Shown: piece after piece, positions 10,796 to 14,270 of the stretch
Position numbering within the stretch: position 1 is the first letter of the stretch
How the letters are laid out: each line of letters begins with the position of its first letter
Origin: Vagococcus xieshaowenii
Lineage (GTDB): Bacteria > Bacillota > Bacilli > Lactobacillales > Vagococcaceae
Length of the DNA stretch: 64,000 nucleotides
Assembly (NCBI RefSeq): GCF_004792515.1
Contig: NZ_CP038865.1
Coordinates: forward strand, 1,014,001 to 1,078,000
Reading direction: 5' to 3'
Program-made: the position numbers and the translations under genes
The notes under the pieces: model-generated
What the model saw: the letters and a program-made list of their open reading frames with translations, nothing else
The model's database searches: none
Told to the model about the DNA's origin: nothing

Positions 10796-11497
10796 TTATT
10801 TATGCTTCATAGCTTGTTTAATTGTTTGATTCACTAATTCTAATTGCGCATCAACGACTTCATAATTAGATAAATCTGTATATTCGGCAATTAAAGAAAG
10901 TTCTGTACATCCAAGGATAATCGTATCACATTGATAATCATTCTTCATTTTATCCAAAATCTGATAAAACAACGCTTTATTCATAAAGTTTTTTTCTTTA
11001 ATATCACGATAAATTAAATTCATGACCTCTTTTTGTAAATGTTCATCTGGCGTAATAACTGACAATTGAGGATATCTAGCTAGAGCATCTTTATAAACAC
11101 CCGTTTTGATAGTGCCACTAGTTGCTAACACACCGACATTAACGGCTTTCTTTTCAATGACCTGATCTACTGCAATTCTTGGCATATGTAGAATAGGAAC
11201 CGTTGTAGCCTCTTGTAATTCATCAAAAAAACGATGGGCTGTATTACAAGTTAAAACAAAGAAATCAGGTGACATTAAACTAAATTGTTTAATATCTTCA
11301 ATTAAAGTAATCGCAGGATTTTCTTCTGATTCCCCTAATAAATAAGCAGTTCTATCTGGAACAGTTGCATGATTAACCAATAAATAATCTAGATAATCTT
11401 GGTCTTTTTTTGCGGGCGTTTTTTCATTCAATAAGTGGACAAAGCTTTCGGTAGCCTTTGTGCCCATTCCCCCTAAGATAACAAAAAAGTTTTTCAT
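10796..11497 (-). CDS. Aspartate racemase (Asp/Glu racemase superfamily)
   Basis: Cofactor-independent interconversion of L- and D-aspartate. The two catalytic cysteines are visible as VLTCNTAH (Cys84) and ILGCTEL (Cys197), and the N-terminal ILGGMGTKATE is typical of aspartate racemases. 233 residues. It lies 20 bp downstream of the D-aspartate ligase gene and after murE. This is the arrangement expected when D-Asp is made for the peptidoglycan cross-bridge (the Asl/Rac pair of Enterococcus faecium). That pathway context supports aspartate over glutamate as the substrate. Confidence 0.87.
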   Translation of the reverse strand: MKNFFVILGGMGTKATESFVHLLNEKTPAKKDQDYLDYLLVNHATVPDRTAYLLGESEENPAITLIEDIKQFSLMSPDFFVLTCNTAHRFFDELQEATTVPILHMPRIAVDQVIEKKAVNVGVLATSGTIKTGVYKDALARYPQLSVITPDEHLQKEVMNLIYRDIKEKNFMNKALFYQILDKMKNDYQCDTIILGCTELSLIAEYTDLSNYEVVDAQLELVNQTIKQAMKHK

Positions 11498-11517: not shown

Positions 11518-12498
11518 CTATTTTTCAGTAAAATGTTCTTTATATCGTTTATTATATAATCTATAAATACGATTAACGAGCAAGTAACGTTTGAAATTCA
11601 TATCTTCTTTATAGAACAACGTAGTACCGCATTGTTTATTCTTCATCATTTCTAGCGCTTTTGTTTTTTGATCAGAATCTTTCACGTATTTTTTTACGAT
11701 TTTTTCAGGAACACCTAACCATAATTTGTTTCCTTTAGCGTATTCAACCTCTGTTAATTCTTTTTTAAGCACATAATCTTCTACGATATATTTAGCTAAA
11801 TTATACCCCATTAATGTTACATAGTAGCTACTTCTACCTTGGCGTAAATTAATTTCAAATAACTTATACTCACCATCTCGTTCATCATATTTCATATCAA
11901 AATTAGCAAATCCTGTATACTCAATTTTTTCTAAGAACGATTGAATGTTTTGGTAAATTTTTTCATTATAATCGGGCATAATAGCGACATAATTACCTAC
12001 TGCTTCAGGTGTAGGGTCTTCTAATAAAGGATTACCTAAACACATCATACGTACTTTATGATGTTGATCGACATAAGCATTTAATACACGCATATGACTA
12101 TCATCACCAGGAATGAAATCTTGGCAAATCATTTCTCCTTGATAATTTGAAGCAAATATACGCTCAACGATTGTCATAAACTCTTGTTCATCTTTAAAAA
12201 TAAAGGCTTTTTTCTTACCTTCAAATTTAGCATCTAACCACGCCACACTATCGGCTGGTTTTAATGCCACAGGGAAAGAAAAAGGAACATTGACTGCTTT
12301 GTTTGCGACGATATCTTTATTAATAATATACGTTGCAGGATAAGGTAAACCGTACTCTTCGCATGTTTCATAGAAGGTTACTTTATCCTCTAGTTGTTTT
12401 TGCAAGTCGGTATCAATCGTTGGACAAATAAACGTTTCTTCCAGTTCTGCTTTATTCATCGCAATTAACTCTGTATAGCCATCTCCACATGGAATCAA
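11518..12498 (-). pseudogene. asl: D-aspartate ligase, downstream part of a frameshifted gene
   Basis: ATP-grasp ligase that joins D-aspartate to the Lys side chain of the peptidoglycan precursor, as Asl(fm) does in E. faecium. This part has the ATP-grasp core: FPVALKPADS, the lid region ICQDFIPGDDSHMRV and the metal-binding LFEINLRQGRSSYY. It lacks the N-terminal pre-ATP-grasp region, which is encoded in another frame at 12515-12757. One extra A in the A8 tract at 12529-12536 would fuse the two frames without a stop, reading ...VKKKHYANNGK...LIPCGDGYTEL. Either the gene is broken or phase-variable here, or the base count is a sequencing error. Confidence 0.85.
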
Positions 12499-12514
12499 GA
12501 GATTAACTTTACCA

Positions 12515-12757
12515 TTATTGGCGTAATGTTTTTTTTACTTCTCTCATGGCTTTAATAAATCCTTCAGGTTCATCGAATTTATCATGGGCATGAACATTGA
12601 CAATATGACTGTATTTAGTTGGTGATAAATGCATCAAACTGTGGGCTTCAGATACAATCCCGTATTCTTCATGAAAGGCACGGGCCATCCCATAAACATT
12701 AATATCACTGCCTAATAAAATAACTGTAAATTTTTCTACAATTGCTGATTTATCCAT
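12515..12757 (-). pseudogene. asl: D-aspartate ligase, N-terminal part of the frameshifted gene
   Basis: About 80 residues starting MDKSAIVEKF, with ILLGSDINVYGMARAFHEEYG and the KYSHIVNV strand, the usual N-terminus of Asl-type ligases. The frame ends (LRQ, TAA) shortly after the A8 run, and the rest of the enzyme continues in a different frame from about 12498. The start at 12757 has AAGGAAG 9 nt upstream and overlaps the stop of murE by 8 bp, so translation is coupled to murE. In this frame alone the product would have no catalytic residues. Confidence 0.85.
12529..12536 (-). other. A8 homopolymer at the frameshift point
   Basis: Eight A on the coding (minus) strand inside asl. Nine A would restore one continuous reading frame of roughly 413 codons from 12757 to 11518. 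Confidence 0.85.
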
Positions 12758-14270
12758 TAATAACATCTTCCTTCGATATAAATTCCTCTACTATCTGTTT
12801 ATCCCCTTGATAAGCGACTTTTTCTTTACCAATAATTTGGTATTTATCTGTCCCTTTACCCGCAATTACTACGACATCTTGTTCTGATGAATGAGTTAAT
12901 GCGTAAAGAATTGCTTCTTTTCGATCTATAATAACATTAGTTATCACTTTTCCATCAATATGTTCTTTAATGGTTTCAGCGATATTTACAGGATTTTCTG
13001 TTCCTGGGTCATCACTGGTTAAGATAACTTGCTGAACATATTGATTAATTACTTTACCAAAATCCATGCGACGCTCGACACCTTTATCACCTGTACTACC
13101 GATTACTAACTTAATCATATGATTAGGATAACTAGTATGTACATGTGATAGTAAGTTATCTAAGCTCAAGTAATTATGAGCAAAATCGACATAAACCGGT
13201 GTTTGTTTAGTCATCAATTTTTCCATGCGCCCTGGAATCACGGTTTCTTCTAATCCAATACGGGCATTTTCCCCTTGATTATCCGTTACTAGTGAGCATG
13301 CTAGCAGGGCACTGGTTGCATTGCTTTGATTAAAGACACCTTCCACTCTAAGTGAATAATCACCTTCAAGCACCCATTCATTTGGTTGAATCGCGAACGA
13401 ATGAAGATCGCGACTGATAAACGAAACATCGGCTTGTTTATTATTCTCTCCAAATGTTAGGACTTCTTTATTATTCGACTGACATTCTTGTAATAAAAAG
13501 TCACTATAATCACTATCTAAATTCAAAATAAATTGTTTTGAATGAGACATTAGCTGACGTTTACAATAAAAATAATCATCAAACGTTGGATGTTCAATTG
13601 GACTTATATGATCCGGTGAAATATTTAAAAATACACCTACATCATAAACCAACCCGTAGACACGATTTAATTTATACGCCTGTGAAGAAACTTCCATCAC
13701 TAAATGTGTCATGCCATTATCAACTGCTTGTCGCATCATTTTATATAAAGGTAATGCTTCTTCCGTTGTTAGATTTGATTTAAAGTGCTCTCCATCACCT
13801 AAAAAAGTTTCTAATGTACTAAACAAGGCTGTTTTATTGTTGGTTACATGTTTTAAAATGCTGTAACAAAAATAAGCAGAGCTTGTTTTCCCTTTGGTTC
13901 CAGTATAGGCAATAATCTTAAGTTCATTTTGTGGCATACCATAAAAATTCATTGCGATGATAGCCATTGCTTTACGAATATCTGTCACAATGATACCCAT
14001 TGTATTAGAGGGTACTTGTTCATAGACTAATTCTGAAACATAAACTTGTAAACCGTTTTGACAGGCATCCACTAAATATTCTTCCTTAAACATTAAACCT
14101 TTACAGAAAAACAAGGTCGACTGGCTCACTTCTCGGGAATCATAAGTAATATGTTCAATATCAAGTTGATAGTCAGTTGGAACATTATAGTGCCACCGCT
14201 TATCAATAATAATTTCTTTTAATAGTGCTTCTTTTTTTAATAGACCAATAATTTGTTGCATGCTTAACAT
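12750..14270 (-). CDS. murE: UDP-MurNAc-L-Ala-D-Glu:L-lysine ligase MurE
   Basis: Cytoplasmic Mur ligase adding the third residue to the peptidoglycan stem peptide. The ATP loop GTKGKTS is at 124-130, the central domain has NISPDHISPIEH, and the C-terminal domain carries LTSDDPGTENP. At the substrate-selecting position the sequence reads DDPG rather than the DNPR of diaminopimelate enzymes, so L-Lys is the expected substrate. 506 residues, start at 14270 with GGGGG 6 nt upstream. It heads a murE-asl-racemase operon, which supports an L-Lys-D-Asp type wall. Confidence 0.9.
   Translation of the reverse strand: MLSMQQIIGLLKKEALLKEIIIDKRWHYNVPTDYQLDIEHITYDSREVSQSTLFFCKGLMFKEEYLVDACQNGLQVYVSELVYEQVPSNTMGIIVTDIRKAMAIIAMNFYGMPQNELKIIAYTGTKGKTSSAYFCYSILKHVTNNKTALFSTLETFLGDGEHFKSNLTTEEALPLYKMMRQAVDNGMTHLVMEVSSQAYKLNRVYGLVYDVGVFLNISPDHISPIEHPTFDDYFYCKRQLMSHSKQFILNLDSDYSDFLLQECQSNNKEVLTFGENNKQADVSFISRDLHSFAIQPNEWVLEGDYSLRVEGVFNQSNATSALLACSLVTDNQGENARIGLEETVIPGRMEKLMTKQTPVYVDFAHNYLSLDNLLSHVHTSYPNHMIKLVIGSTGDKGVERRMDFGKVINQYVQQVILTSDDPGTENPVNIAETIKEHIDGKVITNVIIDRKEAILYALTHSSEQDVVVIAGKGTDKYQIIGKEKVAYQGDKQIVEEFISKEDVING

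Follow-up and report, generated by a model that had tools for sequence, protein, structure and literature searches.

On the minus strand of the window, the 64,000-nucleotide stretch of Vagococcus xieshaowenii DNA analysed here, an ATP-grasp gene resembling D-aspartate ligases stands in the assembly as two frames joined at exactly eight A. The split is very probably a homopolymer sequencing error, and the ligase is most likely intact in the living bacterium; an incorrect count of A in the tract would have shifted the frame on paper only. We favor sequencing error because the plasmid contig of the same assembly carries 12 private one-base indels, and because the breaks in the ligase and in fni, the gene for a type-2 isopentenyl-diphosphate (IPP) isomerase, match the signature of those indels. 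The features concerned are collected below.

Coordinates of the split ligase gene, its neighbors and fni (window positions unless a contig is given)
Feature	Position	Strand	Remarks
N-terminal ligase part	12515..12757	-	Stop soon past the tract; minus-strand ORF listed as 12515-12766 (83 aa, upstream ATG), inner ATG at 12757
A8 run (plus-strand T8)	12529..12536	-	Junction of the frames; seven A in sister G003; most likely a homopolymer length error
C-terminal ATP-grasp ligase part	11518..12528	-	Other frame; listed ORF 11518-12498, start TTG at 12498
murE (UDP-MurNAc-tripeptide synthetase)	12750..14270	-	Intact, upstream, overlaps the ligase start; TIGR01085 above cut-off
Aspartate/glutamate-type racemase	10796..11497	-	Intact, downstream; TIGR00035 above cut-off
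fni	G000:C1:989205-990178 (outside the window)		Gene split where a G run lacks one base relative to the sister

The initial annotation had placed the meeting point of the two frames at exactly eight A, and this was borne out. The N-terminal part shares 91% identity with the first 86 residues of the intact sister gene, and the C-terminal frame, which is open from the A tract down to 11518, is 91% identical to the sister across 326 aa, with no further stop inside either part. The ligase residues read ...MREVKK ahead of the tract and KHYANNGKVNLLIPCGDGY past it, and the same stretch, aligned in step, reads ...VKKDYENNGKVNILLPCGD in the sister and ...MKQYANDSRK in a more distant relative. Given that the residues on both sides are in step with both proteins, the frame change sits at the A tract, within the first quarter of the gene's length. 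It had also been claimed that a tract of nine A would yield a single intact ligase, which is wrong: on three-frame translation the frame opened by nine A reads ...KKNITPIMVKLIS and then stops, the ligase continues (...KHYANNGKVNLLIPCGDGY) in a different frame whose offset is of the opposite sign, being +1 relative to the upstream frame, and the sister has seven A. The flanking murE and racemase genes were described as intact, and indeed both have open frames and fit their families.

The gene is an ordinary putative D-aspartate ligase of the AslA/Asl-fm type, assigned by its ATP-grasp sequence and its racemase neighbor. The C-terminal part resembles ATP-grasp and carbamoyl-phosphate-synthase-like models weakly, under their cut-offs, and these matches together with 76 relatives point to an ATP-grasp carboxylate-amine ligase, next to which lies the aspartate-type racemase expected of this type; no curated ligase family of Pfam or NCBIfam was matched at cut-off, and no match was found among solved structures. 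The order murE, ligase, racemase is consecutive and in one direction on the minus strand; the ligase is followed by the racemase in 58 of the 76 relative loci, and murE is there too, mostly preceding, in 36 of them. This layout matches the AslA/RacD arrangement reported for L. lactis (PMC4155827). AslA of Lactococcus lactis and Asl-fm of Enterococcus faecium, with RacD, are likewise ATP-grasp ligases beside an aspartate-type racemase; unlike them, the Vagococcus ligase, known here from sequence, has its frame broken at an A tract, and this in the present assembly only.

Matches to the ligase were found in 37 of 60 related genomes; another 76 loci, in Vagococcus, Tetragenococcus, Enterococcus, lactobacilli, bifidobacteria and others, came from named genomes that were scanned in addition. 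The 106 loci assembled for comparison reduce to 101 distinct ORFs and, with the window's own removed, to 100, two of which are cut by the end of their locus; all of the 98 distinct uncut relatives thus assessed have a single open frame of at least 404 codons. Ten further matching rows from related genomes, outside the 106 loci, likewise show long open frames with no internal stop. The nearest relative, the sister species G003, is 91% identical and has seven A at the tract site in an intact 422-aa gene. In the interval around the junction that extends from 66 bases ahead of where the downstream match starts to 18 bases past that point, 3 of 105 relative loci, one of them the sister's, have runs of at least seven, and among close relatives a tract at this very site is found in that one sister species only. 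No ligase turned up when viral contigs were scanned, and a plasmid and phage search for the gene returned only records that are 60-80% identical. Four phage-labelled records (OR848680.1, OR847535.1, OR847621.1 and LT985590.1) have DNA 67-77% identical to the ligase and are possibly bacterial contigs.

Compared with the sister by the Nei-Gojobori method, with synonymous sites near saturation, dN/dS is 0.048 before the tract and 0.027 after it, so that both parts bear the mark of strong purifying selection; the corresponding values for the neighbors are 0.126 (murE) and 0.047 (racemase). Because strong selection has acted up to the present on the part beyond the break, the break must be either very recent or not real. 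These ratios, with no other stop in either part, exclude old decay to a pseudogene. A programmed frameshift gene was rejected as well, given that the frame change is not conserved and that the distinct uncut relatives, without exception, keep the gene in one frame.

The quality of the assembly could be gauged from its second contig, C2 (27,416 bases), an Inc18-type plasmid nearly identical to pEGM181-1 of Enterococcus gallinarum. The differences were first noticed in a 12.2-kb comparison of the two plasmids, and over 10.4 kb (G000:C2:1649-12000, locus L220) they amount to 12 single-base indels with 0 substitutions. When C2 is aligned with five plasmids, each of the 12 proves private to the present assembly, and the five differ among themselves by 35 to 477 substitutions and by no indel but one two-base gap in pBN31. 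All six gains in C2 are of A or T and all six losses are of G or C; the equal tally represents separate sites, at each of which the other five sequences of the six-sequence alignment agree. The indels hit transfer genes and break pEGM181-1 ORFs of 653 and 551 codons. Given that mutation would hardly yield 12 indels without a substitution, we take them to be homopolymer miscalls. Quality is uneven along the contig, with 11 of the 12 falling within 2.4 kb and a stretch of 3,949 bases showing no difference at all.

A survey of frame breaks was carried out by tblastn of ORFs between 934 kb of the present genome and 1,120 kb of the sister. Matches at 60% identity or more were obtained for 473 of 1,019 sister ORFs (147,539 codons), and seven frame changes were flagged in the present genome, of which inspection confirmed two as true one-base breaks of conserved genes: the ligase, which has gained an A, and fni, which has lost a G, with no other conserved gene affected. 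Left out of this count were an antisense ORF (320), an ORF in an rRNA region that was hit twice (388, 864), a VanZ-like remnant at 34% coverage (538) and the doubled match of a 94-aa ORF (812). The reverse comparison matched 458 of 819 ORFs (145,064 codons) and showed no genuine break in the sister; the single flagged change was an ORF extension upstream of hisS, apparently within a T-box leader, and this extension was left out on the sister's side together with an rplJ leader ORF and a largely masked ORF. In-frame stops, numbering 16 and 8 in the two directions, stand outside the frame-break count. The count of two breaks over about 440 kb of coding sequence, with none on the sister's side, does not by itself amount to a significant difference. 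The VanZ-like gene of the sister is represented in the present genome by a short remnant only, near G000:C1 1,425,116-1,425,299.

The second break is informative by virtue of the gene that it interrupts. The fni product is the sole type-2 IPP isomerase in the genome, in which HMG-CoA synthase is present and neither a type-1 isomerase nor ispH was found. The gene is in one open frame in all eight relatives compared, and its dN/dS values for the parts that flank the break are 0.050 and 0.075. By the known pathway, a cell of this kind with a truly broken fni would have no other source of DMAPP, and we therefore read the break as a sequence error, probably of the same kind as that in the ligase. 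The gain of an A in the ligase and the loss of a G in fni fit the signature of C2, A/T gains and G/C losses, and in C2 and fni the assembly has other one-base indels without substitutions, as expected of homopolymer assembly errors.

Eight A in a row is as such not beyond chance: the window has 21 A/T runs of at least eight, against 30 expected under a first-order Markov model, and 442 intact genes with orthologues in this genome contain, on the coding strand, 64 A8, 2 A9 and 6 T8. These 72 unbroken runs, with only two breaks in about 440 kb, speak against error in that they show a chromosome with far fewer faults than the bad stretch of C2; low coverage confined to that stretch may account for the 11 clustered errors. 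On the other side, long-read-only assemblies are reported to hold possibly hundreds of residual errors, mostly frame-shifting homopolymer indels (PMC8812927), and the likeness of the present case to the gene-splitting one-base homopolymer indels of such bacterial assemblies is one of indel type. Assembly errors of this sort are described as inflating apparent pseudogene counts (PMC12007338), and for frame-shifted genes that are unclustered and have homologues, sequencing error, not mutation, is given as the expected cause (PMC3711429). From all this we infer that the A tract itself would be one of the errors of the assembly.

Second after sequencing error ranks a real and very recent frameshift fixed in the isolate, as a culture mutation or a young pseudogene, which we consider unlikely and which would leave the walls without the D-Asp bridge. 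The ligase is single copy in the genome, where no other known bridge enzyme was found, with no match to the FemAB family, and the D-aspartate ligase gene of L. lactis is reportedly essential, to go by the title of Veiga 2006; these points, the strong selection on both parts of the gene and the proven presence of same-type errors in the same assembly all weigh against a real loss. In its favor, A8 is a plausible site of replication slippage, and poly(A) tracts are reported to mutate at rates that can be about 1,000-fold above average (PMC2831843).

Of the three readings that the initial annotation had offered, sequencing error gained support from fni and the C2 indels, old decay was excluded by the dN/dS values (about 0.05 and 0.03), and phase variation, by which slippage at the tract would toggle D-Asp bridging within the population, found no positive support and is very improbable. 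The position of the A tract in the first quarter of the gene and the seven A of the sister would suit such a switch, and a published polymorphic 5' poly(A) tract, that of Listeria inlA, makes it possible in principle (PMC2831843). As in the ligase, the poly(A) of L. monocytogenes inlA lies near the 5' end and its length sets the frame; there, however, strains differ and reversion has been measured (PMC2831843), whereas the ligase is broken in one assembly and no examined relative is off. The proposed switching also fails on the tract itself, in that it is kept at the site by one sister species and no other close relative, the relatives are all open, the supposed nine-A state is not an on state, and intact genes of this genome commonly contain runs of seven or eight A; a cytoplasmic enzyme that serves wall synthesis, a probably essential process, would moreover be an unusual target. 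A phase-variable contingency locus was rejected on the same ground, the repeat tract not being conserved at the site beyond the seven A of the sister. It is just as hard to credit that a lineage-specific A7/A8 tract might make the ligase phase-variable within a small Vagococcus group, with a subpopulation that would have an unbridged wall. A limited literature search found no joint report of D-aspartate ligase and phase variation, and a true switch would, as far as that search shows, have no known precedent among peptidoglycan bridge enzymes.

The least credible reading is that the gene is truly out of frame and rescued at the tract by RNA polymerase slippage or ribosomal frameshifting. The heptamer A_AAA_AAA is a -1 site, but the ligase frame is +1 and a -1 shift would enter a frame that stops, and no relative has a conserved frame break. 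Poly(A) longer than seven is counted among the slippery sequences for RNA polymerase (PMC3711429), but transcription slippage in A/T runs is reported mostly to add single bases, with losses rare (PMC5574713), which is the wrong direction.

With homopolymer sequencing error as the preferred reading, the case is a caution for the use of this genome: the public assembly carries homopolymer errors, gains in A/T runs and losses in G/C runs, and the split genes in it, the essential-looking fni included, should not be taken for biology of the organism without reads.
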